Of a DNA stretch of 64,000 bases, positions 18,703 through 37,840 are shown piece by piece. The DNA lies in contig NZ_DATIND010000156.1 in the NCBI RefSeq assembly GCF_035474595.1, positions 1-64,000 on the forward strand, given 5' to 3'. The notes under the pieces are model-generated. The model was given only the letters and a program-made list of their open reading frames with translations, searched no databases and was not told the DNA's origin. This DNA is from Longimicrobium sp. Its GTDB lineage: Bacteria > Gemmatimonadota > Gemmatimonadetes > Longimicrobiales > Longimicrobiaceae. Each line of letters opens with the position of its first letter. The first letter of the stretch is position 1. The translations under genes were made by a program, and so were the position numbers.

Positions 18703-19593
18703 TCACGCCTGCGCCGTCTCCCCCGCCTCCGCTTCCACGTTCTGCGTCGCGAACGTCACCGGCTCGCCCGCGTCCACCTGCTTCAGCGCGACGCCGCAGC
18801 GCTCGCCCCACAGGCTGAAGCGGTTCGTCTCCACCCCCTGCCGCCACGCCTCGGCGGCCGCGCGGTGGTTGCCCTCCAGGTAGAAGGCGCGCCCCATCTC
18901 CCACCACGCCTCGAGCATGTTGGGGCCCAGCTCCAGCGTCTTGCGGAAGAAGGCGCGCGCGTCGTCGAACATCTCGCGCTCGGCGTACACCAGCCCCATG
19001 TAGAAGTGGGCGTAGAGCGATGCCTTGCGGTCCTGCTCCTGGCGGATGGCCTTGGACAGGTGCTCGATGGCCTCGCCGAAGATCCCCTTCTTCAGGCAGA
19101 TGTAGCCGAGATTGACGCGCGCCAGCGGGTTGTCGGGCGTCTTCGCCAGCACCTTGTAGTAGGTGAACAGCGCGTCGTCGTAGTGGCCGCGCAGCATCTG
19201 CGCCCACCCCAGCAGCGTCTCGGCCTGCGGGTCGTTGGGCGCCAGCTCCAGCGCGCGCTCCAGCTCCTTCACCGCGCGCTTCGCGTCGCCGCCGGCGATG
19301 GCGCTCCACCCGCGCTCGATGTACGTGGTGCTGCCAATCAGGTCGGACACCACCGTGCGCCCGCGCGGCGCCGGGGCGGGCGCGGGCTTCTCGCCGGCCA
19401 GCGACTTGTAGCGCTGCACCAGCTCGCGGATGGTCTCCTTGAAGGCCGTCAGCCGCTCGATGGCCGCCTCGGTCTCCTTGAACAATCCCACGATGTCGTT
19501 CTTGACCGCATCGGCGGCGTCGCCCGCGTCCAGCCGGGCAACGATGGCGGCGCGGCGCTCCTCGTACGCGGCCAGCAGATCCTCCGCGTTCAT
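18703..19593 (-). CDS. TPR protein at the end of the chemosensory cluster
   Basis: A 296-residue protein. Residues 1-70 are a charged helical region (coiled-coil-like), then a short linker (PAPAPAPRG) and at least five tetratricopeptide repeats from about 90 to 265 (for example GHYDDALFTYYKVLAKTPDN and GIFGEAIEHLSKAIRQEQD). TPRs bind proteins; here the partner is probably a Che or Mgl component. Its ATG overlaps the stop of the upstream cheW by 4 bases (ATGA), so it belongs to that operon and is its last gene. Confidence 0.85.
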   Translation of the reverse strand: MNAEDLLAAYEERRAAIVARLDAGDAADAVKNDIVGLFKETEAAIERLTAFKETIRELVQRYKSLAGEKPAPAPAPRGRTVVSDLIGSTTYIERGWSAIAGGDAKRAVKELERALELAPNDPQAETLLGWAQMLRGHYDDALFTYYKVLAKTPDNPLARVNLGYICLKKGIFGEAIEHLSKAIRQEQDRKASLYAHFYMGLVYAEREMFDDARAFFRKTLELGPNMLEAWWEMGRAFYLEGNHRAAAEAWRQGVETNRFSLWGERCGVALKQVDAGEPVTFATQNVEAEAGETAQA

Positions 19594-20120
19594 CCCTTCG
19601 CGCCCTTCGCCGCCGGGGTTCCCGCATCCTCGTCCTCCGCGCCGAAGCCGGAGAAGAGGAGCTGCATCCGCTCCTGGCTGCTCAGGATGCGCTCCAGGTC
19701 CAGCAGCACCACCAGGCGCCCCTCCAGCCGCACGATCCCGCGGATGAACTCGGCGGCCAGCCCCTTCACGTAGCCGGGCGGCGGGTTCACGGCGGTTTCC
19801 GGCACGCGCAGCACCTCGGTCACCTCGTCCACGATCAGCCCCAGGCGCTCGCCCTGGAAATCGGCCAGCATGATGCGCGTGTCGTCGTCGTAGCGCAGGT
19901 CGTGCACCTCGAACCGCTTGCGCAGGTCGATCACGGGCACCAGGGCGCCGCGCACGTCCAGCACGCCCTCCACGAAGGCGGGCGCCTTGGGCATGGCGGT
20001 GGGCGGCTCGTAGCGCAGGATCTCGTGCACCTGGAACACGTCGAGCCCGAACTCCTCGCCGCCGATGCGGAAGGTCACGAGCTGCACCTGCGGCACCGCC
20101 GCCGCGCGAACGTTTCTCAT
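19590..20120 (-). CDS. cheW: chemotaxis coupling protein CheW
   Basis: A 176-residue CheW that links chemoreceptors to CheA. It has the two SH3-like subdomains: LVTFRIGGEEFGLDVFQVHEI, VLDVRGALVPVIDLRKRF and IVRLEGRLVVLLDLERIL. The start is taken at ATG 20120; an earlier in-frame start at 20207 adds residues without family similarity. It is coupled (ATGA) to the downstream TPR gene. A 336-base repeat-filled gap separates it from the next cheW upstream, so it may have its own promoter. It is one of three CheW proteins in the cluster. Confidence 0.92.
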   Translation of the reverse strand: MRNVRAAAVPQVQLVTFRIGGEEFGLDVFQVHEILRYEPPTAMPKAPAFVEGVLDVRGALVPVIDLRKRFEVHDLRYDDDTRIMLADFQGERLGLIVDEVTEVLRVPETAVNPPPGYVKGLAAEFIRGIVRLEGRLVVLLDLERILSSQERMQLLFSGFGAEDEDAGTPAAKGAKG

Positions 20121-20227
20121 GGGACCGTTCGTGGAAAGTAAATCGTGAAAAGCAGCTTCAACGGCTGTGCGTGGGCGTGTTCCGCGCCGGGGGCGGCTTG
20201 CAGGCATCCCCGCGGCCGTGGCCGGGC

Positions 20228-20274
20228 GAATGAATTCGCGGCAACAACGGCCCGAAGTCCGCCTTCGCGGACTG
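20228..20274 (+). repeat. dispersed repeat, GAATGAATTC family, copy 2
   Basis: Starts GAATGAATTCGCGGCAACAA and ends with a small hairpin (AGTCCGCCTTCGCGGACT). It matches the block order of 2467-2512. Confidence 0.6.
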
Positions 20275-20344
20275 CCACCTCGCCATCCCCGCGCCGCACG
20301 AAACCCTCGCGGAACGGGCGGAGAGGGCCAGCCGGGCGGGCAGG

Positions 20345-20450
20345 ATGCATCCCATCCCGCACCGTTGCCATCCGGCTACCTCTCCCGGTACGGGAGAGGT
20401 GGCGAGCCCAGGCGAGCCGGAGGGGGGCGCGATGCCGGTCGCGCGCGCCG
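20345..20450 (+). repeat. dispersed hairpin repeat (ACCTCTCCC arms), copy 1
   Basis: Centre at 20378-20400: ACCTCTCCCG, TAC-type centre, CGGGAGAGGT. Flanks have common blocks (GTTGCCATCCGGCT before; GAGCCGGAG, then GGGCGCGATGC after) shared with 34570-34665 and, inverted, with 60100-60205. With the other repeat it fills the gene-free stretch 20121-20456. Confidence 0.7.
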
Positions 20451-20456
20451 AACCCG

Positions 20457-20927
20457 TTACGCCGCGGTCGCCGCCTCGCGCAGCATCTCCGCCAGGTCGA
20501 TCAGGCTCACCAGCGTTCCATCCAGCCGCGCCACGCCGACGACGAACTGGTCGCGGTCGCCGCCGGTGAGGGGCGCGGGGCGGTAGTCGGCGGGGGTGAG
20601 CGCCACCACGTCCTGCGCCGCGTCCACGGCGACGCCCAGGCGCGCCTCACCCATCCCCACGACCAGGATCGCCGGCTGCTCGGCCTGCAGCGCGAGATCG
20701 AGCAGCGGTGCCACGTCCAGCACCGGCACCAGCTCGCCGCGCAGGCGCAGCATCCCCATCAATCGCGGCGGCATGTCGGGGAGACGGTGGACGCGGCGCT
20801 TCGTCACCACCTCCTCCACCAGCTGGATGTCGCAGGCGTGCAGCTCGCCGCCCAGCCGGAAGGCGATCACCTGCGCCTCGTCCTCCGCCACGCGCTCGCG
20901 GAAGGGGCGGAACGCGTCGCCGCTCAC
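20457..20927 (-). CDS. cheW: CheW-like coupling protein
   Basis: A 156-residue CheW-domain protein: QVIAFRLGGELHACDIQLVE, MGMLRLRGELVPVLDVAPLL and VARLDGTLVSLIDLAEML. It starts at GTG, overlapping the cheB stop (GTGA), so translation is coupled to CheB. The pairing with cheB, cheD and cheR makes it part of the adaptation half of the cluster. It is the second of three CheW proteins; differences between them could assign receptors to separate arrays. Confidence 0.9.
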   Translation of the reverse strand: MSGDAFRPFRERVAEDEAQVIAFRLGGELHACDIQLVEEVVTKRRVHRLPDMPPRLMGMLRLRGELVPVLDVAPLLDLALQAEQPAILVVGMGEARLGVAVDAAQDVVALTPADYRPAPLTGGDRDQFVVGVARLDGTLVSLIDLAEMLREAATAA

Positions 20928-22147
20928 GGCGCCTCCTCCAGCGCGGGCGTCTCCGTGGGCGTCTCCGCGGGTGCCGGGACGAGCGCCGCGCGGGCGTTCA
21001 CCGCGCCCTCGATGGCCGCGTGGATCTGCTCCAGCGGCAGGATGGTGGTGGCGTGCTCGGCGGCGGCCTGCGGCATCCCGTAGATCACGCTGGTCCGCCT
21101 GTCCTGCGCGATCCCCGCGCCGCCGGCGGCCACGATCTCGCGCAGCCCCTCGGCGCCGTCGCGCCCCATCCCCGTGAGCACCACGCCGACCGAGCGCGCG
21201 CCGTAGACCTCGGCGGCGGAGCGGAAGAGGGGGTCCGCGGCGGGGCGCACGCCCCAGAGCGACGGCCCCTGGTCCAGCGCCACGCACGGCGTTCCCGCCT
21301 CGTCGCGCACGATGCGCATGTGGAAGTCGCCCGGCGCCATGTACACGTGGTTCATCCGCACCGGCTCGCCATCCGCCGCCTCGGTCACGGGAAGCCCGTC
21401 CAGCGCGTCCAGCCGCTCCGCGAAGGTGCGGGTGAAGTGCGCGGGCATGTGCTGGACGATGAGCACCGCCGCGCCCAGCGGGTTGCGCAGCCGCGGCAGC
21501 AGCTCCGCCAGCGCGCGGGGCCCCCCGGTGGACGCCGCGATGCACACCGCCATTCCCGACGCGGGCGCGTCGGCCGCCACCGTGCGCCGCCGCCTGCGCC
21601 GGAGCGGCTTCGGCCCGGCGGCGGGCGCGGCCTCCAGCACCGAGCGTTCGCGTGGCGCGGGGCGCCCGGCCACGCGCACGGGAATCATCTCCAGGTTGGC
21701 CGACGCCGCCGCGCGCAGCGCCTGCAGCAGCCGGTCGGCCACCGTCTCCAGGTTCAGCGAGATGGTGCCGCTGGGCTTGCTGACGAAGTCCACCGCGCCG
21801 TAGTCCAGCGCGCGCATGGTGGCTTCGCCGCCCTCGGTGGTGTACGCGCTCAGCATCACCACGGGGCGAGGCGTCTCGCTCATGATGTAGCCCAGCGCCG
21901 TCAGCCCGTCGAGCCCCGGCATCTCCACGTCCATCGTCACCAGGTCGGGCTCCAGCTGGTGCACCTTGCGCAGCGCGTCGTTGCCGTCGCGCGCGGTGCC
22001 GATCACCCGGAACTCGTCGGTCTGCGAAAGGATGTCGGAGATCACGCGGCGCATGAAGGCGCTGTCGTCCACCACCAGCACGGTGTGCGGCCCGCGGCGC
22101 TTTCCGCGCGGGCGCGGCGGCGGCGACGGCGGCCTAGAGGACGACAT
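20924..22147 (-). CDS. cheB: protein-glutamate methylesterase/deamidase CheB
   Basis: A 407-residue two-domain enzyme. The receiver domain has acidic VVDDS and phosphoacceptor D73 (TMDVEMPG). The catalytic domain holds the Ser206 (AASTGGP), His233 (VQHMP) and Asp330 (GMGRDG) triad. Phosphorylated by CheA, it removes receptor methyl groups for adaptation. A Pro/Arg-rich N-terminal extension of about 20 residues and an Ala/Pro/Thr tail are unusual but look harmless. It overlaps cheD by 14 bases and the next cheW by 4. Confidence 0.96.
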   Translation of the reverse strand: MSSSRPPSPPPRPRGKRRGPHTVLVVDDSAFMRRVISDILSQTDEFRVIGTARDGNDALRKVHQLEPDLVTMDVEMPGLDGLTALGYIMSETPRPVVMLSAYTTEGGEATMRALDYGAVDFVSKPSGTISLNLETVADRLLQALRAAASANLEMIPVRVAGRPAPRERSVLEAAPAAGPKPLRRRRRRTVAADAPASGMAVCIAASTGGPRALAELLPRLRNPLGAAVLIVQHMPAHFTRTFAERLDALDGLPVTEAADGEPVRMNHVYMAPGDFHMRIVRDEAGTPCVALDQGPSLWGVRPAADPLFRSAAEVYGARSVGVVLTGMGRDGAEGLREIVAAGGAGIAQDRRTSVIYGMPQAAAEHATTILPLEQIHAAIEGAVNARAALVPAPAETPTETPALEEAP

Positions 22148-22622
22148 CCGGCTTCCCCACCGACGAGACCACCGTGCGTCCGGCGGCCACGTCGAAGCGC
22201 ACCGAGCGGCCGTAGTCGCCGCCCACGGCCTCGCCCAGCAGCGGGATCCCCGCCTGCCGCAGCGCCTCGCGCGTCGCGCGGATGTTGCGCTCGCCCATGT
22301 TCAGCGAGCCGGGCACCATCAGCGAGGTGAACATCGACGCGCCGCCCACGATGCGCGCCTCCAGCCGCCCCTCGCGCGCGCCCATCGCCGCCAGCTCGCG
22401 CACCATCATCGGCACCGCGGTGGTGGCGAACTTGGCGAAGTTGTCGCGGTCGCGCGCCAGCGCCGGCTCGGGAAGGAGGACGTGCGCCAGCCCGCCCACC
22501 TTCGCCTGCCGGTCGTGCAGGAGGATGGCCACGCAGCTCCCCAGCCCCAGCGTGATCAGCACGTCGCCGGGGGCGCCGGTGGCGTGGTGGGCCACCTTCA
22601 CGAAGATCTGCCGGGGCTTCAT
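22134..22622 (-). CDS. cheD: chemoreceptor glutamine deamidase CheD
   Basis: A 162-residue CheD. The catalytic Cys30 and Thr24 lie in ITLGLGSCV, and the His47 lies in GGLAHVLLPE. It deamidates glutamines on chemoreceptors and in other species is a partner of CheC, which is also encoded in this cluster (33778-34398). Its ATG overlaps the cheR stop (ATGA), and its end overlaps cheB by 14 bases. Confidence 0.95.
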   Translation of the reverse strand: MKPRQIFVKVAHHATGAPGDVLITLGLGSCVAILLHDRQAKVGGLAHVLLPEPALARDRDNFAKFATTAVPMMVRELAAMGAREGRLEARIVGGASMFTSLMVPGSLNMGERNIRATREALRQAGIPLLGEAVGGDYGRSVRFDVAAGRTVVSSVGKPDVVL

Positions 22623-23467
22623 GCGGGCTTCTGGAAGATCCGTTCGCGGTTGTTCACGGAGCGGAAAAGGGTGCGCGCCACCCCCACCAGCGTCTCCACC
22701 TTTCCCATCACCAGGAACCCGCCCGGCACCAGCGCGTCGTAGAAGTCCTTGAACAGCCGCTCCTGGATCTCGCGGTCGAAGTAGATCACCACGTTCCGGC
22801 AGAAGATGAGGTTCTGCCCGCCCTCCGCGCGCTCGGAGATCAGGTCGCGGCGCACGAAGCTCACGTTCTTCTGCGCCTCGGGGCGGATGCAGTACGGCGG
22901 CCCGGGCGAGAACCAGCGCTGCCGGATGTGCGGCGGCGTCTCGGTCAGCGACAGGTCGGGGTAGCTCCCCCTGGCCGCGTTCTCCAGGCTCTTGCGGTCG
23001 ATGTCGGTGCCCACCACGCGCACCCGGTCCGCGTCGCCGCGGCGGTGGTGCTTCTCGGCCCACTCGCGCATCAGGATGGACACCGTGTACGCCTCCTCGC
23101 CGCTGGCGCTTCCCGCGCTCCACACCTTCAGCGGCCCCGGCGTGGCGAAGAGCGGTGGCAGCACCTGCTGCTCCACGGCGTGCCACGTCTCGATGTTGCG
23201 GAAGAACTTGGTGACGTTGATGGTCAGCGTGTCGAGCAGGTGGTCGTACTCGGCCGGCTCGCGGTCCAGCAGCGAGGCGTAGTCGGCGAACGAGCGCTGC
23301 CCCCGCGCGCGCATCCGCACGGCGATGCGGCGGCGCAGGCACTTGTCCTTGTAGAACGAGCAGTTGAAGCCCCGGTCGCGCTCGATCTTCAGCTTCAGGC
23401 GCTCCAGCTCCTCCTCGTCGCCCTCCAGCGGCAGGGTGAAGGGGAGGTACGGCGGCGGCAAATTCAT
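22619..23467 (-). CDS. cheR: chemoreceptor methyltransferase CheR
   Basis: A 282-residue SAM-dependent methyltransferase. The N-terminal helical domain has YKDKCLRRRIAVRMRARG and TINVTKFFRN. The Rossmann domain has the SAM motif VWSAGSASGEEAYTVS and NLIFCRNVVIYFD. It methylates glutamates on MCPs, opposing CheB. It is coupled by ATGA overlaps to the DUF4388-TPR gene before it and to cheD after it. Confidence 0.96.
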   Translation of the reverse strand: MNLPPPYLPFTLPLEGDEEELERLKLKIERDRGFNCSFYKDKCLRRRIAVRMRARGQRSFADYASLLDREPAEYDHLLDTLTINVTKFFRNIETWHAVEQQVLPPLFATPGPLKVWSAGSASGEEAYTVSILMREWAEKHHRRGDADRVRVVGTDIDRKSLENAARGSYPDLSLTETPPHIRQRWFSPGPPYCIRPEAQKNVSFVRRDLISERAEGGQNLIFCRNVVIYFDREIQERLFKDFYDALVPGGFLVMGKVETLVGVARTLFRSVNNRERIFQKPA

Positions 23468-25081: not shown

Positions 25082-26257
25082 TCAGGCCAGCTCCTCGATC
25101 AGGCGGTCGTCCAGCGCCAGCCAGTCCCACGCCACCTTCTCGGGGTTGTTCAGGTACCAGCGGTCCACCGGCGGCGGCGCCGGGCGCGACCGCTCGGCCG
25201 CGGCGCGCGCGGACAGGAGCAGCGCCTCGGCCTCGGCCACCCGGTCGGGGTCCTTCAGCACGGCGGAGCCGGCCGCCTCGGAGTCCAGCTCCGCCAGCGC
25301 GGCGGCGATGGTGCGCAGCTTCTCCACGTCGGCCGCATACCCGGCCAGCAGCGCGTCCACGTCGAACGCCGAGTCGGTGTCCAGCGAGTGCTCCAGGCGG
25401 CGCGTACGGAAGCCCTCGCCCTCCCAGCGCAGGATGGCCTCGGCCAGCTTCTTCCGCCACGGGTCGGTCTCCACGATCTGCTCGACCGTGGAGGTGATGT
25501 CGAAGAGGAAGGCGCTGAACTCGTCGGCGTGCTCCGCGCGCGGGAGGCCGACCAGCGAGGAAAGCTCGGAGACGCGCACCTGCCGCCGCTCCTCCTCCTG
25601 CACCTGCCCGATGCGGTCCACCCCGGCGTGCAGCTCGCGCGCGCCGTCCAGCGGCAGGCCGGCCAGCGCCTCGCCCACGCCGCCGCCCAGCTCCACCCCG
25701 CGCCGCGCCGCCGCCCGGCGGACGATCTCCACCCGCGTCTCGGGCTCGGCCGGCGTCATGTCGACGACGAGGCCGCCGGCAAGCTTCCCGCGGAACTCCT
25801 CGGTGACGCCCTCGAGATCGGCCGGGGCCGCTTCCGCCGCCAGGACGATCTGCGTACCCGTCCACACGATCTCGTCCCACACGCGCAGCAGCTCGGCCTG
25901 CGTGCGGCTCTTCCCGGCCAGGAGATGCGCGTCGTCGATGAGGATGACGTCGCTCTCCAGCAGCTCGTCGGCGAACGCCTCCAGCGTCCCGGCGGATACG
26001 GCCGAGGAGATGTCGTCGACCAGCTCCTGCGCGGTGCGGTAGGTGACGTGCAGGTCGGGGCGCACGGTCAGCGACAGCGCGCCCACCGCGTGCAGCAGGT
26101 GCGACTTGCCCACGCCGGCGGCGCCGTATACGAACAGCGGGTTGTAGCTGGTCCCCGGGGCCTCGGCGGCACGGCGCGCGGCGGCCGCGGCCATCTGGTT
26201 GCCGGGGCCTGCCACGAAGGTGTCGAAGGTGAAGCGGGGGTCCGGCTGGAACCTCAT
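25082..26257 (-). CDS. DnaA-family AAA+ ATPase lacking the DNA-binding domain
   Basis: A 391-residue protein. Residues 1-180 match DnaA domain III closely: FTFDTFVAGPGNQMAAAAAR, PLFVYGAAGVGKSHLLHAVG (Walker A), VILIDDAHLLAGKSRTQAEL (Walker B) and the ADLEGVTEEFRGKLAGGL region. In that last region the arginine-finger stretch of DnaA (RLRSRF) is changed to EFRGKL. The origin-binding domain IV is absent; instead there is an unrelated helical C-terminus. It therefore should not initiate replication. Its place among che, TPR and mglA genes suggests a nucleotide-dependent switch or assembly factor for the array or pole. That role is inference. Confidence 0.8.
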   Translation of the reverse strand: MRFQPDPRFTFDTFVAGPGNQMAAAAARRAAEAPGTSYNPLFVYGAAGVGKSHLLHAVGALSLTVRPDLHVTYRTAQELVDDISSAVSAGTLEAFADELLESDVILIDDAHLLAGKSRTQAELLRVWDEIVWTGTQIVLAAEAAPADLEGVTEEFRGKLAGGLVVDMTPAEPETRVEIVRRAAARRGVELGGGVGEALAGLPLDGARELHAGVDRIGQVQEEERRQVRVSELSSLVGLPRAEHADEFSAFLFDITSTVEQIVETDPWRKKLAEAILRWEGEGFRTRRLEHSLDTDSAFDVDALLAGYAADVEKLRTIAAALAELDSEAAGSAVLKDPDRVAEAEALLLSARAAAERSRPAPPPVDRWYLNNPEKVAWDWLALDDRLIEELA

Positions 26258-26365
26258 CGGGTCGCTGGCGGCGTCGGAATTCGGGCGGCGGCGATTGTCA
26301 GGGTGATGAGGGAAAGCTATCTCCCGACGCGCCTTGAAGCTAGGTGCCCGGCACCGGAACCCGGC

Positions 26366-26990
26366 TCAGGTGCCGACCGGGTACTCCGCCATCCACTCGA
26401 AGATGAGGGAGCGCAACTCGGCGAACTGCAACTCGGCGGGCTTCACATGCAGGGGGCGACAGAGCGACGGAAGGGGACCGGAACTGCGCGTCTCGCCTGC
26501 AGATCTCCGACGGCCCGGGAATCCGGGCCGTTCCGCCGAGTGCCGTCGCCAGCATCGCACGCACCGCCGCGATGGCCTGCGCGGGGCTGTTGTCGTGGGC
26601 ACGGATATCCTGCCCCGCGATGTCCGAGCAGAACTTCTGGTACCGGTAGCGGTCCCGGTCCAGCACGAGCGAGCGCTTCGTTCTCTGCCGCCGGTCGCCG
26701 TACTCCTGCGCGCCCATGAACAGGCCAAACTCGAACGGCATGTTGAAGCGCGGGAGCCGCGTGCTCGAATCCAGCGTCACGCGTGAAATGTCGTGGATGC
26801 CGTACCGGCACTCGCGGATGATCCGCTTGATCTTGACGATCCGCACCTCACCCCCATCCTCGACCTCCAGAGCGGAACGCGCGATGAACCCGCAGTCGTA
26901 GACCGCGAACACAAGCGCGTGAAAGATGGGGCGGTAGCGCGAGTCGAATGGACAGTTGATGAATACGTTCCTTTCGTATCCATCCTCCAT
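26366..26990 (-). pseudogene. VFINCPFD-motif Rossmann-like protein, frameshifted near the C-terminus
   Basis: Residues 1-175 read cleanly (NVFINCPFDSRYRPIFHALV, GIHDISRVTLDS, FNMPFEFGLFMGA, KFCSDIAGQDI). The expected end (PSLCRPLHVKPAELQFAEL, then EWMAEYPV) is in another frame ending at 26366. The shift lies near 26470-26485 and is a net gain of one base or loss of two. The unshifted frame runs to 26340 with an Arg/Val-rich nonsense tail. The family is widespread and uncharacterised; its start resembles nucleotide-binding Rossmann proteins. It overlaps the small gene before it (TGATG) and interrupts the che-mgl cluster, so it is probably a transferred cassette. Confidence 0.65.
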
Positions 26991-27172
26991 CAGCGGTTCC
27001 GAGGATCGCCAGCCTCCCGGCCGGACTCGGAGGCTCGCTTCCGCGCCTGGGCGGCACGCTTCTCGTTGCGCTCCTTCACTGCGCGAACGGCGTCCCTGAT
27101 CTGCTCCTCCGTGAACCGCCCCGAACCTTCGGGACGAATGACCGTGCGCCAGGGCACCTTCTTCTTCGCCAT
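26990..27172 (-). CDS. small basic protein, partner of the frameshifted gene
   Basis: A 60-residue, lysine/arginine-rich product (MAKKKVPWRTVIRPEGSGRF, then a charged helix TEEQIRDAVRAVKERNEKRA). It overlaps the ATG of the following gene by one base (TGATG), so the two are a coupled pair. The small-basic-plus-larger-enzyme layout recalls toxin-antitoxin or defence cassettes, but no family is recognised. The 204-base gap before mglA contains no other gene. Confidence 0.6.
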   Translation of the reverse strand: MAKKKVPWRTVIRPEGSGRFTEEQIRDAVRAVKERNEKRAAQARKRASESGREAGDPRNR

Positions 27173-27376
27173 TGCTCCCTCCCTTTTCGATGGATGCGAT
27201 CGATCAGGAATCCGGCCGCCCCGCGTGATCAGAAGGAGAAGCCGTCCATCGAAAGATGAACGGGTCGGGAGATTCTACAAGGCCGCGCCAGAAGACGGCT
27301 ACCGTGCGTACTCGCGTACGCACGGTGGCGTAAAAATGCGCGTCGGCGGCTGGTAATCGGGAGGAAAGGCAGCTGC

Positions 27377-27988
27377 TCAGGTGGCCGCGGTGACGCCGCG
27401 GCCGAAGCGCTGCGAGAGGCGGCGGAGCACCTGCTCGCTGATGCCGCGCAGCGTGTCGAACACGCCGGCGCCGGCCAGCGCGCGGGCCTCGTAGCGCGGC
27501 AGGTCGCGGTAGTTCAGCAGGTCGTCCATCTCCTCCACGCTCATCACGTCCGGCAGGTCGCGCTTGTTGTACTGGAGGACGATGGGGATCTGGCGCGGGT
27601 CCACCCCCTGCTCCAGCAGGTTCACCTGCAGGTTGCGGAAGCTCTCCACGTTCTCCTCGGCCTGCGCCCGCTGGCTGTCGCCCACGAACACCACGCCGTC
27701 GGCGCCCTGCAGCACGAGCTTGCGCGTGGCGTCGTAGTACACCTGCCCGGGAACGGTGTAGAGCTGGAAGCGCGTCTGGAAGCCCGAGATGGTGCCCAGG
27801 TCCAGCGGCAGGAAGTCGAAGAAGAGGGTGCGGTCCGTCTCGGTGGCGAGCGACACCATCCGCCCGCGCCGGTCCTCCGGCACCTGGCCGTAGATGTACT
27901 GCAGGTTGGTGGTCTTCCCCGAGCGCCCCGGACCGTAGTACACGATCTTGGAGGTGATCTCGCGGGTCGAGTAGTTGACCAGGGACAT
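27377..27988 (-). CDS. mglA: MglA-type small Ras-like GTPase
   Basis: A 203-residue GTPase closely similar in pattern to Myxococcus MglA: NYSTREITSKIVYYGPGRSG with the P-loop at residues 19-26 (GPGRSGKT), TETDRTLFFDFLPLDLG, LYTVPGQVYYDATRKL and IVLQYNKRDLP (guanine specificity). It binds GTP and in myxobacteria marks the leading cell pole, recruiting motility machines. The start at 27988 matches the MglA N-terminus; upstream in-frame codons overlap the roadblock gene region. It lies 61 bases after three roadblock-protein genes that could provide its MglB-type GTPase-activating partners. Confidence 0.95.
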   Translation of the reverse strand: MSLVNYSTREITSKIVYYGPGRSGKTTNLQYIYGQVPEDRRGRMVSLATETDRTLFFDFLPLDLGTISGFQTRFQLYTVPGQVYYDATRKLVLQGADGVVFVGDSQRAQAEENVESFRNLQVNLLEQGVDPRQIPIVLQYNKRDLPDVMSVEEMDDLLNYRDLPRYEARALAGAGVFDTLRGISEQVLRRLSQRFGRGVTAAT

Positions 27989-28049: not shown

Positions 28050-28556
28050 CTACGCACCCGGTCCCGCGGCGGCGCCGTCCTGCCCGCCGAAGATGGTTTC
28101 CAGCCCCGCCGTAAGGTCCCGCTCGAACGACGCCGCGTCGGCCGTGGGCCGCGTCTCGCTCCACCCGGGGAGCGCCGCAACCTCGCGCACGAACTCGTCG
28201 AAGAACACCTGCACCAGCCCGATGGACGAGTCCTCGCCGAACACGGCGATGGCGATCAGGTCCTCGGCCGGCGTGCGGAAGGGGCCGATGAACACCTGGC
28301 TCACCGCGCCGCCCTGGTGCAGGTGGCGGAAGCCGCCCTCGCCCAGCATCACCGCCAGCGCGTGCGACGAGGCGTGGATGCCGGCGCCCAGCGCGGCCAC
28401 CCCCATCACGTCCAGCGCCCGCGCGAACCCCCGCTGAGCCAGCACCTGCCCGCTCTCGTTGATCAGCAGCACCAGGCGCAGCCCGCCCTCGCGGGCGAAG
28501 CGCTCCACCGGCGGCGCCAGCGCGCCCACGAACTGCGCGAGGTCCGCGCGCCTCAT
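28050..28556 (-). CDS. roadblock/LC7 domain protein, MglB-like candidate
   Basis: A 168-residue protein with a roadblock fold: LRLVLLINESGQVLAQRGF, then a helical middle (VAALGAGIHASSHALAVMLG), strands VSQVFIGPFRT and DLIAIAVFGEDSSIGLVQVF, and a longer C-terminal helix. Roadblock dimers regulate small GTPases; MglB is the GAP of MglA. It directly precedes mglA and overlaps the previous roadblock gene by 4 bases (ATGA). It is the best candidate for the MglB function, but assignment among the three is uncertain. Confidence 0.85.
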   Translation of the reverse strand: MRRADLAQFVGALAPPVERFAREGGLRLVLLINESGQVLAQRGFARALDVMGVAALGAGIHASSHALAVMLGEGGFRHLHQGGAVSQVFIGPFRTPAEDLIAIAVFGEDSSIGLVQVFFDEFVREVAALPGWSETRPTADAASFERDLTAGLETIFGGQDGAAAGPGA

Positions 28557-28906
28557 CCCAGCGCCTCTACGACCTTCGCCGCTTCGAGCCGCACCAGCCC
28601 GACGTTCACCCAACCTTCCGCGATCACCACCAGCAGCAGGTCGCCCAGCTGCGGCGGCGCGGCGGCGAAGAGCAGGCCGTCGTCGGCCTCCACCTGCACG
28701 AACTGGGCGGACCCGAACTCGGCCGACTGCACGGAGCGGCGGGCGCGGCGGAAGATGGAGGCCACCAGCGCGGCCACGGCGCCGCCGGGCACGCCCACCA
28801 TCAGGTCCTCCTCCACGATCAGCCCGTCCTCGAGGGCCACGACCATGCTGCCGCGCACGCCGGGAACGCGGTTCACCCGGTCCAGCAGCTCGCCGTAGGC
28901 GCTCAC
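28553..28906 (-). CDS. roadblock/LC7 domain protein (short)
   Basis: A 117-residue single roadblock domain: VPGVRGSMVVALEDGLIVEE, GGAVAALVASIFRRARRSVQ and LLFAAAPPQLGDLLLVVIAE. It starts at GTG, overlapping the TPR-roadblock gene (GTGA), and overlaps the next roadblock gene (ATGA). It probably dimerises, perhaps with one of its neighbours, to regulate MglA or to act as a scaffold. Confidence 0.85.
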   Translation of the reverse strand: MSAYGELLDRVNRVPGVRGSMVVALEDGLIVEEDLMVGVPGGAVAALVASIFRRARRSVQSAEFGSAQFVQVEADDGLLFAAAPPQLGDLLLVVIAEGWVNVGLVRLEAAKVVEALG

Positions 28907-29871
28907 GGGGCGCCTCCGCCCAGGAAGCGCACCGCGGCGTCGCGCGCCCGCGCGGCCACCCGCAGCACCCATCCCATCGGCACGTCGCGGCGCCCGGCCA
29001 CGGCCACCATCCCCCCGTCGGGCGTGGGAGAGAGGCGGATGACCGCGTCGGGCGTCTCCACCATGATCCCCTTCCACGCGCCCAGCTTCAGGTGCCGCAC
29101 CGCGCGCTGCGCCTCGTCGGATGCGGGGGAAAGGACGGCGGCGATCTCGGGGCCGCGGTCGCGCCCGCCCACGTGCATCTCGCCGGCGACCACGAACCCC
29201 TGCGCGTCCAGCATCACCGCGCCCACGATCCCCCGCTCCGCGCTCAGCGCCGCCAGGTCGCGCAGCAGCACGTCGAACACGTGCCCTTCCCCCGCGCTCG
29301 CGATCGGCGTATCGGCGGACGGAGCCGGGGCTGTCATCGGTGACGTGGCAGGCGGTGACGTCGTCGCGGCGACCGCGGGACGAGCCGGAGCCTCCGTCGC
29401 CCCCGCCGTTCCCTGTCCCCTGTCCCCCGTCCCCTGTCCCCTCCCGCGGCCGCGGGCCGCGCGCCGCTCCGCCAGGATCCGCTCCAGCGCGTCGCGCACC
29501 TCGGCATCGTCGAACTGGCTTTCCAGCGCGCGCTCCAGGTGGCGCTCGGCGTCTTCCAGCTCCCCGCGCTCCAGGCAGAGGAAGCCGATCTGCCGGCGCG
29601 CGCCGTGGTGCTCGGGGGCCAGCGCCAGGGCGATGTCCCACTCGTCGAACGCCTTCACCTGCTCGCCCGCGTCGCGGTACAGGCAGCCGAGAAGATAGTG
29701 CGCCTCGACGTCGTTAGGATGCCGCTCCAGCCCGCGGATCACCAGCCGGAGCGCCGCATCGCCCTTCCCCAGCGCGCGGTAGTGCTCGGCGAGGGGGAGA
29801 AAGGCGGGGCTGCCGGCGTCGGCCGCCACCTCGTCGCTCCACTGGCGGACCTGCTGCGGGGTGGCGCTCAT
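28903..29871 (-). CDS. TPR-roadblock fusion protein
   Basis: A 322-residue protein. Residues about 1-125 hold TPRs (KGDAALRLVIRGLERHPNDV; RGELEDAERHLERALESQFD). Then comes a Gly/Arg/Gln/Thr-rich linker (RGRGRGQGTGDRGQGTAG) encoded by a GGGGACAGG-type repeat run, an Ala/Pro/Thr linker, and a roadblock-type domain at about 200-322 (LSAERGIVGAVMLDAQGFVV; GGMVAVAGRRDVPMGWVLR). It is coupled to the DUF4388-TPR gene before (ATGA) and the short roadblock gene after (GTGA). It probably brings a GTPase regulator to the TPR scaffold. Confidence 0.82.
   Translation of the reverse strand: MSATPQQVRQWSDEVAADAGSPAFLPLAEHYRALGKGDAALRLVIRGLERHPNDVEAHYLLGCLYRDAGEQVKAFDEWDIALALAPEHHGARRQIGFLCLERGELEDAERHLERALESQFDDAEVRDALERILAERRAARGRGRGQGTGDRGQGTAGATEAPARPAVAATTSPPATSPMTAPAPSADTPIASAGEGHVFDVLLRDLAALSAERGIVGAVMLDAQGFVVAGEMHVGGRDRGPEIAAVLSPASDEAQRAVRHLKLGAWKGIMVETPDAVIRLSPTPDGGMVAVAGRRDVPMGWVLRVAARARDAAVRFLGGGAP
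29408..29443 (-). repeat. GGGGACAGG-type repeat inside a coding linker
   Basis: CCCTGTCCCCTGTCCCCCGTCCCCTGTCCCC lies within the TPR-roadblock gene and encodes its GQGTGDRGQGTAG linker. The same motif family is intergenic at 4421-4450 and at 34684-34712. Confidence 0.65.
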
Positions 29872-31019: not shown

Positions 31020-33785
31020 TCAGCCCGCGCCGGCGGGCGCCGCCGCGGTGCGGAACACGCTCGCGAAGTCCAGCGCCGTGTCGATGTTCTCGCGCGCGGG
31101 CGCGGCCCACGGCCCCTCGGGGTCCGCCTCCACCGCCCGGCGCCAGTGCTCGATGGCCTCGCGGAAGCGCCGCTCCGCCGCGGCCACCATCCCCAGGTGG
31201 AACAGCGCGTCGGGGCGATGGGGATCGAAGCGCAGGATGCGCGCGAAGGCCGTCCGCGCGTCGGCCCGCCGCCCGTCGTCCAGCAGCACCTGCCCCAGGA
31301 GGAGGAGCGCGTCGAAGTGGTACGGGTCGCCCGCGAGGAGATCGACCAGCCCGTGCACCGCCTCGCCGAAGCGCCCGGCCGCGCGGTAGGCCGAGGCGAG
31401 GAGGAGCGCGCCCTCGAAGTACGTGGGGAGCACGTCCAGCGCCGCCCGCGCCTCGGCGATCGCGTCCTCCGTCCGCCCGCGGTCCAGGTAGAGCCGCCCC
31501 AGCTCCAGCCGCGCCGCGACGAAGTCCGGATCGAGCCGGATGGCCAGCTTCAGCGCGCGCTCGGCGTCGTCCGGCTTTCCCGCGGCGACCGCGGCGCGGC
31601 CCAGGTTGCGCAGCAGCCCGGCATCCTTCGGCGCCAGCTCCACCGCGCGCGAGAAGACGCGCACCGCCTCCGTCGCCTCGCCCTCGCCCAGCAGCGCCTC
31701 GCCCAGCACCTGCAGGTTGTCCACGCGGTCGGGGTCGTGCTCGCGCACCATCTCGGCGGCCTCGCGCGCGTCCGCCGGGCGGCCCAGGCGCAGGAGCGCG
31801 CGGGCGCGGCCGGCCCAGGCGCGCGCGTGATCCGGCCCCCACGGCTGCGCCTCCAGCCGCGCGATCGCGCTGTCGAAGCGCTCCAGCGCCTCGCCCTCCA
31901 GCCCCTGCCGCAGGAAGATCTGCGCGGTCAGCAGCGCCGCCTGCACCGGGTCGGCCCCGGCGACGGCCACGCGCCGCACCTCGCCCAGCGCGCGGTCCAG
32001 CAGCCCCTTGGAGAGATAGTCCTCGGCCAGCGCGAAGGCGTCCGCCGCGGCGACGGGAGCCGTCGCCGGCGCGGCGGCGGGCTGCGGGGCCAGCTCGCTG
32101 AAGATCTGGTCCAGCGCCTGGTCGTCGAAGGTGAAGCTCTCCACCCCCGCGTCGCCGCTGATGCGCTCGGCCGCGTCCAGCTCGGGCGCCAGCACCTCGG
32201 CGTACTCGAACTGCACGTCGATCGACAGCTTGTAGCGCGGCGTGGTGTAGTACGGGTTCAGCTCCAGCGCGCGCTTGGTCTCCCGCAGCGCCCCCTCGAA
32301 GTCGCCCAGGTTGCTGAGGACGAAGGAAAGGTTGTAGCGCGCCTCGGCGTAGTCGGGGTCGGCCTCCACCGAGCGGACGAAGGCGTTCCTCGCCTCCTCG
32401 TACCGGCGGGTCTCCATCAGCACCGCGCCGATGCCGTTCCACGCGGCCGCCGCGTCGGGGCTGGCGCGCAGCGCGGCGCGGTAGGCGTCCAGCGCGGCGC
32501 CGTGGCGGCCGCGGCGCAGGTACATCAGCCCGCGGTTGCACCACGCGTCCACGAACTCGGCGCGGAGGCCCACGGCCTGCGCGAACGCCTCCTCGGCGCC
32601 CGCATCGTCGCCGCGGTGCAGGCGGACCACGCCCAGGTTGTTCCACGCCAGCGCGTAGCCGGCGTCGCTGTCCAGCGCGCGGCGGTAGCTCCCCTCGGCT
32701 GCGTCGACATCCCCCGTCTGGTGCTGGCAGACGCCGCGCTCGTTCCAGAGCTTGGGGCTCTTCTCGTCTTCGGCCAGCAGCCGGTCGTAGAGATCGAGCG
32801 CCTGCGACGCCTTTCCCTGGAGGAGGTAGACCTCGGCCATGGCCTGGCGCACCAGCGCCGGCTCTTCGGCCTGCTCCAGCGCGCGCCCGAACTCGCGCAG
32901 CGCCTCGTCGTACAGCGCCTTCTGGCGGAAGGCGATCCCCAGGTTGTAGTGCGCCAGCTTCTCGCCCTGCGCCACCTCGGGGCGGCGCACGCGCCCGCCG
33001 ACCAGCTCCTGGTAGCGCGCGGTGCTGTAGCGGTCCAGCGAAAGGTTGGCCTGCGCCTTGGCGAAGTGGGGGTTCAGCTGCATCGCCCGGCGCGACTCCT
33101 GGCTGGCGCGCTCCATGTCCTGCATGTCGCCGTAGACGAAGGCCAGCACGTAGTGCGCGTCCGGGAGCTCCGGGTTCAGCTCCACCGCCCGCGTCAGCTC
33201 GCGCAGCGCCTCGTCGTTCAGCCCGCGGTTGTAGTAGAGCTCGCCCACGTAGAAGTGGAGCACGGCGCTGTCGGGATCGTGCTCCAGCGCGCGCAGGAAC
33301 CACGTCATCGCCGTCTCGAAGTTCCCCCCCGCCTTCTCCGCCTGCCCCAGCTGGATGAGGACGCCCAGGTCGTCCGGGTCCTGGGCCAGGACGCGCTTCA
33401 GCTCGGCCACCGCGCCGGCGTGGTCGCCGGTGTTGAGGTACGCGGTCGCGAGCCGGGTGCGCGCCTCGGCGTCGGCCGGGTCCTCGCGCAGCCGCTCGCG
33501 CAGCTCCGAGATCATCCGGTCGTAGTAGCCGGTGGCGAAGTAGGCGATCTCCAAGTTCCGCTGCGCCACCACCATCTTGGCGTCGATGGCCAGCGCGCGC
33601 TGGAACTGCTGGATCGCCTCCTCGTACAGCGCCTTGTTGAAGTAGAGGACGCCCAGGTTGTTGTGCGCGCCCGCGTCGGCGGCGTCGATCCGCTGGGCGA
33701 ATCCGCGCAGGATGCGCAGGTCGCGCTCCGAGTGGGGCGGGCGCGGCTCGTGGGCGGCGGGGGAAAGGTCCTGCAGCTCAGGCAA
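31020..33785 (-). CDS. large TPR scaffold protein
   Basis: A 921-residue protein made almost entirely of TPRs (about 20 or more). The first block runs over residues about 35-545, and a linker rich in Ala/Pro at about 560-590 separates a second TPR block to the end. Examples: NNLGVLYFNKALYEEAIQQF and WNNLGVVRLHRGDDAGAEEA. No signal peptide is seen, so it should be cytoplasmic. In myxobacteria, TPR proteins assist MglA-driven motility and pili; here it probably organises the Che/Mgl complex. It overlaps cheC by 8 bases. Confidence 0.88.
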   Translation of the reverse strand: MPELQDLSPAAHEPRPPHSERDLRILRGFAQRIDAADAGAHNNLGVLYFNKALYEEAIQQFQRALAIDAKMVVAQRNLEIAYFATGYYDRMISELRERLREDPADAEARTRLATAYLNTGDHAGAVAELKRVLAQDPDDLGVLIQLGQAEKAGGNFETAMTWFLRALEHDPDSAVLHFYVGELYYNRGLNDEALRELTRAVELNPELPDAHYVLAFVYGDMQDMERASQESRRAMQLNPHFAKAQANLSLDRYSTARYQELVGGRVRRPEVAQGEKLAHYNLGIAFRQKALYDEALREFGRALEQAEEPALVRQAMAEVYLLQGKASQALDLYDRLLAEDEKSPKLWNERGVCQHQTGDVDAAEGSYRRALDSDAGYALAWNNLGVVRLHRGDDAGAEEAFAQAVGLRAEFVDAWCNRGLMYLRRGRHGAALDAYRAALRASPDAAAAWNGIGAVLMETRRYEEARNAFVRSVEADPDYAEARYNLSFVLSNLGDFEGALRETKRALELNPYYTTPRYKLSIDVQFEYAEVLAPELDAAERISGDAGVESFTFDDQALDQIFSELAPQPAAAPATAPVAAADAFALAEDYLSKGLLDRALGEVRRVAVAGADPVQAALLTAQIFLRQGLEGEALERFDSAIARLEAQPWGPDHARAWAGRARALLRLGRPADAREAAEMVREHDPDRVDNLQVLGEALLGEGEATEAVRVFSRAVELAPKDAGLLRNLGRAAVAAGKPDDAERALKLAIRLDPDFVAARLELGRLYLDRGRTEDAIAEARAALDVLPTYFEGALLLASAYRAAGRFGEAVHGLVDLLAGDPYHFDALLLLGQVLLDDGRRADARTAFARILRFDPHRPDALFHLGMVAAAERRFREAIEHWRRAVEADPEGPWAAPARENIDTALDFASVFRTAAAPAGAG

Positions 33786-34398
33786 GGCGGATCGCCTGGA
33801 GGATGATCTCGAGCGACTCCACGTCGGGAAGGAGCAGGAACTGGCCCTGCACCGTCTCGTCGCCGTCCATCACGAACTCGGTCTGGATGCAGAACACGAA
33901 GTCGCGCTCGTGCCCGAAGTTGGTGTACGCCGTGGTCAGCACCGCGCCGCACAGGTCGATCACCAGCGACGGGACGGACGGGAGGAGCATGAGCCCCATG
34001 AAGTCCGACAGCGCGTTCATGTAGGCGGCCGAGAGGATGTTCCCCGCCTCCTTGATGGCGCTCTGCTCCAGCTCGCCGAACACGTGGCTGGAGCCCGGCT
34101 GCCGGTGCAGGAGGATCTCGGCCAGGCGCATGGCGCTGTTGCGCGGAAAGATGAGCAGCGTGCGCCCGGTCAGGTCGCCCAGCATGTGCATCAGCACGGC
34201 GGCCACAACCTCTTCGGGGTGGCCCATGATGTCGGGCACGTCCTCCAGCGCGGTGACCTGCAGGCGCGGAACGTTGATCATGATCCGCGTGTTGGTCATC
34301 TGCGACAGCGCCGTGGCGGCGTGCCCCGCCCCCATGTTGCTGACTTCGCGGAGGGCGTCGATCTGAATGGCCCCCAGGTCCCGCAGGTCGAGCGTCAT
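33778..34398 (-). CDS. cheC: CheY-P phosphatase CheC
   Basis: A 206-residue CheC with both phosphatase helices: EVSNMGAGHAATALSQM (Glu18/Asn21) and EAGNILSAAYMNALSDF (Glu117/Asn120), each ExxxN with the following hydrophobic pattern. Two active sites distinguish CheC from CheX-like variants. It hydrolyses CheY-P, and CheD (22134-22622) is its usual partner. The start is at ATG 34398; the frame is open upstream without family similarity. It overlaps the large TPR gene by 8 bases. Confidence 0.93.
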   Translation of the reverse strand: MTLDLRDLGAIQIDALREVSNMGAGHAATALSQMTNTRIMINVPRLQVTALEDVPDIMGHPEEVVAAVLMHMLGDLTGRTLLIFPRNSAMRLAEILLHRQPGSSHVFGELEQSAIKEAGNILSAAYMNALSDFMGLMLLPSVPSLVIDLCGAVLTTAYTNFGHERDFVFCIQTEFVMDGDETVQGQFLLLPDVESLEIILQAIRLA

Positions 34399-34569
34399 AC
34401 TCGCGGTCGCCTCGTGTGCGTGTGTCGGACCTGCATCAACTTCGGGTCGTGGTCCTGCCGGATCTGTCCGCATCGCCATCAGGAACAGCTAACTTCTTAC
34501 GCCTCGAACTGCAACGTCGGAGTTTCCATCTCCCCCGCAGAGCGCCCCCTCCGCGACGAAGGCGCGTCC

Positions 34570-34665
34570 ATCCGCAGCAATGCCGGCCAAGCTACCTCTC
34601 CCGGTACGGGAGAGGTGGAGGGCCTGAGCCGGCCGGAGAGGGCGCGATGCGGCGGACGCACACTC
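34570..34665 (+). repeat. dispersed hairpin repeat (ACCTCTCCC arms), copy 2
   Basis: Centre at 34594-34616, with the same flanking blocks as copy 1 (AATGCCGG then CCAAGCT before; GGAGAGGGCGCGATGC after). With a GGGGACAGG run at 34684-34712 it fills most of the gene-free stretch 34399-34708 between cheA and cheC. Confidence 0.7.
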
Positions 34666-34708
34666 GCATCGTCCCGCTCGCCCTGTCCCTCTCCCCTATC
34701 CCTGTCCC

Positions 34709-36661
34709 CTACGCCGCGTTCGCCGCCGCCAGCACACTCCCGGCGTCCAGGATCAGCGCCGGGCGCCCGTCGGAGAGGATCGTGGCGCCGGAGAACAGGC
34801 GCAGCGTGTCGGCGGTGGTGTCGAACTGCTTCACCACGATCTCCTGCTGCCCCATCAGAGCATCGACCTCCAGGCCGATGCGCTGCTCGCCCACTTCCAG
34901 GATCACCGCGTGGCGCTTCTCGCCGTCGGGGCGCGTGCCGTTGGTGCGCAGGATCTGGCGCAACCCCAGGAGCGGGATCACCTCGTCGCGCAGGAAGGCC
35001 ACGTTGCGCCCCTTCACCGTCCCCACCTCGTCGGCCAGGAGATGGACGGTCTCGCCGACGTGGGTGAGCGGCAGCGCGTAGGTCTCGCCGCTCTGCCGCA
35101 CCAGCAGCGCGCGAACGATGGCCAGCGTCTGCGGCAGCTGCAGCGTCATCGAGGTGCCGCGGCCGGGCTCGCTGAAGATCTCCAGCATCCCCCCCAGCGC
35201 CCGCACGCGCGTGGCCACCACGTCCAGCCCCACGCCGCGCCCGCTGACGTCCGTCACCGTCTCGGCGGTGGAGAAGCCGGGGCGCGTCAGCAGGCGGTGG
35301 ACTTCCTCGTCGGGGAGCGCGGCGGCTTCCTCGCGCGTCACCAGCCCGTTCTGCACGGCCTTGGCGAGGACGCGCTCGCGCTGGATCCCGCGCCCGTCGT
35401 CCTCCACGCGGATGATGATGCGGCTGCGCTCGCGGCTGGCGGACAGGCGGAGCGTGCCCGTCTCGGGCTTGCCGTGCGCGCGGCGCTCGGCCGGCGCCTC
35501 GATGCCGTGGTCCAGCGAGTTGCGCAGGAGGTGGACGAGCGGGTCGCCGATCTCGTCGAGCATCGAGCGGTCCAGCTCGATCTCTTTCCCCTCCATCACG
35601 AAGTCGACCTTCTTCCCCAGCGTCCGCGCGGCGTCGCGCACCAGGCGGGGGAAGCGGTCGAAAACCTGCGACACGGGGGCGAGGCGCGCCCGCATCACCT
35701 CGTCCTGCAGCTCGCCGATCAGCCGGCTGGCCTGGTCCACCGTCTCGGCCAGCTCGGGAACGTCGGGGCCCACCAGCCTGCGCAGCCGGTCGCGGGCGAT
35801 GACCAGCTCGCCCACCTGGTTCATCAGCGCGTCCAGCCGGCGCAGGTCCACGCGGATGTGCCGCGCCCGCCCCGCCGCCCCGGCCGCCGCGCGCCCCTCC
35901 TCCGCCCCCGCGTCGGGCGACGCGATCTCGGCCGCAGCTTCCACGCGCCGCTCGCCCACGTCGACCGAGCCGATCTCGCCGACGGAGAGGAGGGCGCGCC
36001 GCACCTCGTCCGCGGGCGCGGCGGTGCGCAGGACGAAGCGCAGCGCGCCGGTGAACTCCGGCTCGTTCAGCGCCGCCTCGCCCGGCTCCACCCCGCTCAC
36101 CTCGCCCAGCTCGCGCGCGCGCTTCAGCGCCATGAAGGCGCGCACGCCGGGAAGGAGAGCCTCCTTCGCGACCTGAACGCGGACGGCGAGCGCCCCGTCT
36201 TCCGCCTCGGCGGCGAGGTCGATCTCGCGCGGCGGAGCGGCGTCGAGCTCGATCTGCGGGGCGAAGATGTCGAACGAGACGTCGTCGCCCGCGGCGGCGC
36301 GGAGCCGCGTGAGCAGCGCCTCCAGCCGCGGCTCGTCGCCGCTCTCCTCCACCGCCAGCTCGATGGCCCGCTCCAGCGCGTCGCAGGCGGCGAAGAGCAG
36401 GTCGATGGTCTCCGGCGTGGCCTGCGCCTTCCCGTGCCGGATGCGGTCCAGCAGGTTCTCCATCTCGTGGGAGAGGTCGGCGACGGAGCGGTAGCCCATC
36501 GTCGCGCTCATCCCCTTGATGGTGTGGACGGCGCGGAATACCCCCTCCACCACCTGCCGCGACCCCGGATCGGACTCCAGGGAAAGCAGCAGGTGGTTGA
36601 TCGTCGAGACGTGCTCGCGCGACTCGGAGAGGAAGAGCTCCCCGTACTGCGAGAGTTCCAT
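34709..36661 (-). CDS. cheA: chemotaxis histidine kinase CheA
   Basis: A 650-residue CheA with all domains. HPt (residues 1-105) carries phospho-His46 in RAVHTIKGMSATMG. A P2-like response-regulator docking domain follows (about 150-250, VRVQVAKEALLPGVRAFMAL and EFTGALRFVLRTAAPADEVR). The P3 dimerisation helices lie at about 280-340 (VDLRRLDALMNQVGELVIAR). The ATPase domain has the N-box HLLRNSLDHGIE and the G boxes VEDDGRGI and GRGVGLDVV. The CheW-like P5 runs about 525-650. Inputs come from receptors via CheW, outputs go to CheY and CheB. It has intergenic arrays on both sides, so it probably has a separate promoter. Confidence 0.97.
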   Translation of the reverse strand: MELSQYGELFLSESREHVSTINHLLLSLESDPGSRQVVEGVFRAVHTIKGMSATMGYRSVADLSHEMENLLDRIRHGKAQATPETIDLLFAACDALERAIELAVEESGDEPRLEALLTRLRAAAGDDVSFDIFAPQIELDAAPPREIDLAAEAEDGALAVRVQVAKEALLPGVRAFMALKRARELGEVSGVEPGEAALNEPEFTGALRFVLRTAAPADEVRRALLSVGEIGSVDVGERRVEAAAEIASPDAGAEEGRAAAGAAGRARHIRVDLRRLDALMNQVGELVIARDRLRRLVGPDVPELAETVDQASRLIGELQDEVMRARLAPVSQVFDRFPRLVRDAARTLGKKVDFVMEGKEIELDRSMLDEIGDPLVHLLRNSLDHGIEAPAERRAHGKPETGTLRLSASRERSRIIIRVEDDGRGIQRERVLAKAVQNGLVTREEAAALPDEEVHRLLTRPGFSTAETVTDVSGRGVGLDVVATRVRALGGMLEIFSEPGRGTSMTLQLPQTLAIVRALLVRQSGETYALPLTHVGETVHLLADEVGTVKGRNVAFLRDEVIPLLGLRQILRTNGTRPDGEKRHAVILEVGEQRIGLEVDALMGQQEIVVKQFDTTADTLRLFSGATILSDGRPALILDAGSVLAAANAA

Positions 36662-37247: not shown

Positions 37248-37745
37248 CTAAGCCAGGATGGGGTCGAAGATCTCGTCGGGGTCGATGGCGACGAAGATCT
37301 CGTCGTCCACCTCGCCCACCCCGCGCAGGTACGCGCGGTCGATGCGAAGCGAGCGCAGGGTCTCGGCGCTGTCGGCCAGGGTGCCGGGGTCCACCTGCAC
37401 GATGCGCGCGACCTCCTCCACCGCCAGCCCCGCCAGCTTCCCGCGGTGCTCCACGATCACGATGCTGTGCTCGGGGATGCGCGACGCGGGAGGAAGGTTC
37501 AGGCGGGCGCCCAGGTCCACCACGGTCACGATGCGCCCGCGCAGGTTGATCAGCCCGCACACGTGCGCGCCGCTCCCGGGGAGCGGCGTGTACGGCCGGG
37601 CGGGAATGATCTCGCGGATGCGCGCGACGGGAACCGCAAAGCGGTGCTCGCCGACCACGAAGAGCACCATCCGCTCGGGCTCGGCCGCCTCGCCCTCGGG
37701 CGCGCCGGCCGCGGCGGGAACGTCTTCGGTGTCGGTGTGGAGCAT
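37248..37745 (-). CDS. cheW: CheW coupling protein, first gene of the cluster
   Basis: A 165-residue CheW: RMVLFVVGEHRFAVPVARIR, GLINLRGRIVTVVDLGARLN and HSIVIVEHRGKLAGLAVEEV. The N-terminal 30 residues are an acidic Ala/Glu-rich extension. The start is set at ATG 37745; GTG at 37769 is also possible. It heads the CheW-CheY-CheA run, 49 bases before cheY, and is the best candidate to pair with this CheA. Confidence 0.92.
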   Translation of the reverse strand: MLHTDTEDVPAAAGAPEGEAAEPERMVLFVVGEHRFAVPVARIREIIPARPYTPLPGSGAHVCGLINLRGRIVTVVDLGARLNLPPASRIPEHSIVIVEHRGKLAGLAVEEVARIVQVDPGTLADSAETLRSLRIDRAYLRGVGEVDDEIFVAIDPDEIFDPILA

Positions 37746-37840
37746 CGCCGGCCTGAAGGGGAGCCGCACTCTGTGGTCGTGAGCGGACCAACATAGCGGG
37801 GGCGTCAGGGGCGGTCAAGAAAGCGCGGCCCCGCTGCGCG

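Follow-up and report, generated by a model that had tools for sequence, protein, structure and literature searches.

A DnaA-like AAA+ protein encoded beside a DUF4388-TPR gene in the class Gemmatimonadetes

Which role can a DnaA-like ATPase without the DNA-binding domain of DnaA play amid genes for chemosensory signalling and cell polarity? This question is raised by a gene, here named DnaL, in a stretch of Longimicrobium DNA (the window, i.e. the whole 64,000 nucleotides that were analysed). A previous sequence-only reading had proposed that a replication-initiator fold is reused here for signalling or for array assembly. We therefore examined the protein itself, its gene neighbourhood and its homologues within the phylum Gemmatimonadota.

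Residues 6-166 of DnaL match Bac_DnaA in Pfam (7.3e-43), and the TIGR00362 DnaA model yields 190.9 bits over residues 6-233, below its cut-off of 343.9 bits. Since the latter match extends to residue 233, homology to DnaA exceeds 180 residues and includes the lid. Thus, the sequence-only reading had correctly recognised DnaA domain III with intact Walker A and B motifs, but had placed its end, at 180 residues, too early. In the AlphaFold model the blocks of the AAA1 core mostly reach 87-95 pLDDT. Superposition on domain III of T. maritima DnaA (2z4r), spanning 238 residues of core and lid at 32% identity, gives a VIA-align Z of 29.8 and an rmsd of 1.8, and a fold search with the model of the whole protein was filled by AAA+ proteins. 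Domain I (DnaA_N) gave no Pfam match, the N-terminus of DnaL beginning at domain III, and the C-terminal part gave no Pfam match to domain IV (Bac_DnaA_C). A hidden domain IV was likewise rejected, with a probability of 0.2% in a profile-profile comparison (hhalign) with gemmatimonad DnaA domain IV. The C-terminal part comprises the helical MID domain, for which searches of Pfam and PDB sequences returned no convincing match and whose helices 266-356 are modelled mostly at ~90 pLDDT, and a tail of low AlphaFold confidence. In the degraded box VII, E154 and K158 align with R281 and R285 of E. coli DnaA, respectively. The latter is the arginine finger of E. coli DnaA (PMC12122000). The expectation that a normal dnaA exists elsewhere in the genome was borne out by a gene of 505 aa with DnaA_N, Bac_DnaA and Bac_DnaA_C on contig C98; apart from this gene and DnaL, no Bac_DnaA gene was found in the window genome.

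The gene is embedded in a chemosensory/mglA cluster (Table 1), as had been proposed, and this cluster is conserved class-wide. The spacing described earlier was likewise confirmed: the TGA stop of DnaL (25084-25082) is followed after one base by the DUF4388-TPR gene, which starts with ATG at 25080 and in turn overlaps cheR by ATGA (23467-23464). Within its DUF4388 region this partner carries an MshE-type c-di-GMP-binding motif (NF053729, 54.7 bits, cut-off 38). On the other side, mglA is not adjacent to DnaL in the window genome, as ~1.1 kb with two ORFs lies in between, together with a terminator-like hairpin (27263-27242); two terminator-like sites were seen in the region, with 1.0 expected by chance. 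Insert and hairpin may uncouple DnaL from mglA transcription in this genome. Neither inserted ORF gave a Pfam match. For the longer of the two, which shows a marginal TIR-effector match, a homologue occupies the equivalent site in only two of 20 loci (L032 and L033). A further cheW (37251-37769, minus strand) lies upstream of cheA, so that the window holds three cheW-like genes, the CheW domain of CheA itself not counted. Near the chemosensory cluster, a Fic/DOC-family protein of 498 aa with SoFic-like PADLOC matches is encoded (37968-39461, minus strand).

Table 1. Features of DnaL and of its gene neighbourhood in the window.
Feature	Residues	Position	Strand	Basis
cheR, cheD, cheB, two cheW, TPR protein		18703..23467	-	Pfam, NCBIfam, CheW matches, conserved order
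DUF4388-TPR partner, 538 aa		23464..25080	-	Pfam DUF4388 2.1e-40
DnaA-like gene (DnaL)		25082..26257	-	ORF, ATG start, 391 aa
AAA+ core (AAA1), DnaA domain III fold	1-168	25754..26257	-	
Walker A GAAGVGKS, intact	45-52	26102..26125	-	sequence
Walker B VILIDD, intact	104-109	25931..25948	-	sequence
Degraded box VII EEFRGKL	153-159	25781..25801	-	alignment
AAA+ lid with sensor-II-like GARELHAGVDRI	169-238	25544..25753	-	TIGR00362 match to 233
MID domain, helical	244-358	25184..25528	-	
Conserved Trp-rich C-terminal tail DRWYLNNPEKVAWDWLALDDRLIEELA	365-391	25085..25165	-	
Insert between mglA and DnaL		26340..27173	-	216-aa + 60-aa ORFs
216-aa ORF		26340-26990	-	
60-aa ORF		26994-27173	-	
mglA-like small Ras-like GTPase		27377..27988	-	TIGR00231 small_GTP 3.1e-7, below cut-off; weak Arf/Ras matches
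mglB-like roadblock protein		28050..28613	-	Robl_LC7 3.4e-6; NCBIfam MglB 32.2 bits, cut-off 200
Second small roadblock-like ORF		28553-28906	-	by eye; conserved order
TPR-roadblock gene		28903-29871	-	Pfam; conserved order
Second DUF4388-TPR gene		29868-31007	-	Pfam; conserved order
TPR protein (921 aa), cheC, cheA		31020..36661	-	NCBIfam; conserved order

A profile of the C-terminal helical part (A1) matches 163 of the 295 Gemmatimonadetes genomes searched (~55%). A search of the phylum with A1 gave 177 of 298 genomes, and among the matches listed all belong to the same class, with one match per genome except for G310, which has two. Against the window genome the profile gives 9.8e-49, the window sequence itself being one of its 20 rows. 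One scan of a species-wide genome collection returned 18 loci, all from Gemmatimonadota and including one Longimicrobium; a viral scan for DnaL gave no match, and plasmid matches cover the AAA part only (~38% identity); of the five listed, three carry the annotation dnaA. No spread beyond the class was thus seen among the matches listed, while distant relatives elsewhere may have been missed. Among the titles and abstracts listed in literature searches, none dealt with this family, and a single paper contained the word DUF4388. DnaL represents a previously undescribed family, and the window gene is its shortened Longimicrobium-family form (f1). Compared to a near relative, window DnaL shows an overall dN/dS of 0.21, i.e. 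purifying selection, which together with the same place being kept across the class argues that the gene is not a product of chance. In the tail, dN relative to L032 is 0.

The domain architecture varies considerably between families. The fullest form (f6, f7 and f10) consists of AAA1 with lid, MID, a second module AAA2 with lid and a Trp-rich tail of the pattern EKxxWxWPxxxDRLIEE. AAA2 lacks the lid in f2, lacks both the lid and the Walker A Lys in f3 and is missing altogether in f1 and f9. Two homologues, L069 (213 aa) and L072 (204 aa), comprise the MID and tail region without any AAA module, and mglA lies directly upstream, leaving no space for one. A separate AAA partner was considered for these two genomes and rejected, as no DnaA-like gene besides the true DnaA was found in them. 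The tail is common to one-AAA and two-AAA forms and is recognisable even in the AAA-less L069. Since both AAA modules have been lost in two lineages, MID and tail form the core of the family. Hence, the earlier statement that domain IV is absent stands, but its supposed replacement by a lineage-specific C-terminus does not: MID and tail are conserved parts that, in the fullest forms, surround another DnaA module. AAA1, AAA2 and DnaA each fall into a group of their own (SH-aLRT 99, 99 and 96). When mapped on a partner-protein tree, which is quick, unrooted and has some long branches, AAA2 requires three changes and AAA1 two; one tandem ancestor followed by losses would explain this distribution. 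The loss series suggests that the AAA+ modules provide optional ATP-dependent control.

In AAA2 of f3 the Walker A Lys is lost in all eight members, and both box VII arginines are kept in all eight. Such retention of arginines in a Walker-less AAA2 suggests an intramolecular finger donor, and for the tandem forms it is probable, as far as residue patterns indicate, that AAA1 receives its arginine finger from AAA2. Nearly every member of f2, f3, f6/f7/f10 and f9 has Arg at the R281 position of AAA1, as against 1/13 members of f1, a family that also has no AAA2. The arginine-finger stretch of the window protein is thus indeed altered, as had been noted, but this alteration is confined to f1 and the other families keep the finger. 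Family f9 has lost AAA2 and retains both AAA1 arginines, so that the donor model fails to cover every lineage.

In 56 of 58 loci, among which three genomes are counted twice, DUF4388-TPR is the next gene downstream of DnaL; the other two loci lie at contig ends. Outside f3, DnaL directly follows mglA in 47 of the 48 loci that could be evaluated. This order mglA, DnaL, DUF4388-TPR is mostly found within a cluster of cheA, cheC, TPR, DUF4388, roadblock, cheR, cheD, cheB and cheW genes. DnaL and full-length DUF4388-TPR agree in 57 of 61 relatives (32 with both, 25 with neither), and the four mismatches are genomes in 590-910 contigs; kinship among the genomes inflates such co-occurrence statistics, and E-values are likewise uncorrected for phylogeny. 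Among the companions that the sequence-only reading had considered, the DUF4388-TPR gene is the invariant neighbour, followed by mglA, but the che genes are not constant. In f3 (L046-L051, L085 and L086) the DnaL/DUF4388-TPR pair was observed outside any che or mgl cluster; in the three neighbourhoods inspected, ileS or a pseudouridine synthase gene is close to the pair, as are divIVA and tolQ/exbD genes in some. An mglA-like gene is present elsewhere in 7/7 f3 carriers of DnaL versus 5/21 f3 non-carriers (Fisher p 0.0007, phylogeny uncorrected). PilT-family copies number 2-4 in f3 carriers and 0-1 in f3 non-carriers, a copy number that may track genome size. The window genome has four PilT-family genes and gave no FliG match. 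In G017, a DnaL carrier, no PilT-family match was obtained at the threshold used, so the link between DnaL and pili is not strict.

Our preferred reading, to which we assign an even chance, is that DnaL acts as an ATP-gated adaptor within a polarity module of MglA and DUF4388-TPR, probably for type IV pili, and serves neither in replication nor as an array component. MID and the Trp-rich tail would be the binding core that docks on the DUF4388-TPR partner, and the DnaA-derived AAA+ module or modules would change conformation depending on ATP. The fuller forms would hold ATP in AAA1 and obtain the arginine finger in cis from AAA2, like two adjoining DnaA protomers fused; the pTM of the tandem-form model is 0.43, which makes domain packing there uninformative. 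With AAA2 and the finger gone, f1 would be an ATP-binding switch, probably with slow hydrolysis. ATP gating is not essential everywhere, as lineages without AAA+ modules exist. SgmX, a TPR protein of M. xanthus, is bound by MglA-GTP and plays an important part in localising PilB to the pole (PMC7519303). By analogy, MglA may exert its effect via the DUF4388-TPR partner, with a presumed output on type IV pili. Since the DNA-binding part is lost and genes presumed to set polarity for surface movement adjoin DnaL class-wide, the replication engine has seemingly been reused, and a reuse for signalling in the broad sense, as proposed from the sequence, appears plausible. A more specific version, in which two DnaA modules were fused round a new helical domain to yield the nucleotide switch of MglA polarity, with AAA2 becoming a dedicated finger donor, is conceivable but rather doubtful.

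Unlikely, in our view, is that DnaL is an Hda-like replication regulator which binds DnaA or the origin via its AAA+ module and couples replication to motility. Its AAA+ fold is nearest to DnaA domain III and Hda, and Lys and Arg at the basic positions of the ssDNA site are kept in most f1 members, as are, for the most part, Ile, Lys and Arg at ssDNA-site positions in AAA2 of the f6/f7/f10 tandem forms. The V211-type residue is, however, an ssDNA-binding residue of DnaA (PMC5835720; PMC12122000), and its AAA1 equivalent is replaced by Ser or Thr in f1 and by His in 19/20 of the f6/f7/f10 forms. The missing domains I and IV, the motility context and the two lineages without AAA+ likewise argue against this role.

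We regard as similarly improbable a remodelling chaperone or loader that builds TPR or pilus complexes by ATP hydrolysis. Strict pairing with a single TPR client candidate would suit such a function, as would the Walker A Lys and first Walker B Asp that are kept in AAA1 of 54/54 homologues examined. Yet the finger is degraded in f1 and L069 and L072 have no AAA+, so that work driven by ATP hydrolysis is not a general requirement.

That DnaL assembles or modulates the CheA/CheW chemoreceptor array is very unlikely, even though it lies within the che cluster in most families. No CheW-domain protein was detected in 7/7 f3 carriers among the relatives, nor in G017, G019 and G035, so that neither CheA nor CheW was detected there. 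All of these genomes nevertheless retain DnaL and its DUF4388-TPR partner; in them, DnaL thus cannot depend on a chemoreceptor array, and the array assembly once suggested for it is unlikely.

Just as little weight falls on the idea that MID and tail act alone in the lineage of the window, where the AAA+ module would be a relic in decay. It would fit the degraded box VII, the sensor II Arg missing in several f1 members, the weakly conserved lid (dN/dS 0.66 between DnaL and the near relative) and the existence of AAA-less forms, but the AAA core is held at a dN/dS of 0.15 in the same comparison, and 13/13 f1 members with AAA1 keep the Walker A Lys and the first Walker B Asp. A role of DnaL in defence was rejected, the matches being marginal only.

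If the adaptor reading is true, the AAA+ engine of DnaA, known mainly from replication and its control, has been duplicated and recruited to polarity and motility class-wide. The series from two AAA modules via one AAA with a finger donor and one AAA to none would then be a natural experiment leading from oligomeric ATPase to adaptor. MglA/DUF4388-TPR systems would gain a candidate further component in DnaL, and some species of the class are in culture.

Compared to known systems, DnaL shares the AAA+ superfamily with the IstB/DnaC helicase loaders (IstB_IS21 4e-8 in Pfam), but this match is weaker than that to DnaA, and there is no transposon or helicase context. The MglA-SgmX system of Myxococcus xanthus resembles the window cluster in that mglA- and mglB-like genes stand beside TPR proteins here as well (PMC7519303 for MglA-SgmX). 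The abstracts on that system describe no DnaA-type protein, and the TPR partner in the window differs by its DUF4388 domain and c-di-GMP motif. Hda is, like DnaL, a DnaA-derived AAA+ protein without domain IV; the Hda model TIGR03420 gives DnaL 84.5 bits (cut-off 194.8), less than half of its DnaA score, and DnaL differs from Hda by the additional MID and tail and by its gene context. With DnaA domain III, finally, DnaL has the AAA+ core, lid and Walker motifs in common, and other DnaL families also keep the finger. Domains I, II and IV and the arginine finger of DnaA are absent from the window protein, whereas MID and tail, the second AAA module of many relatives and the motility context set DnaL apart from DnaA.
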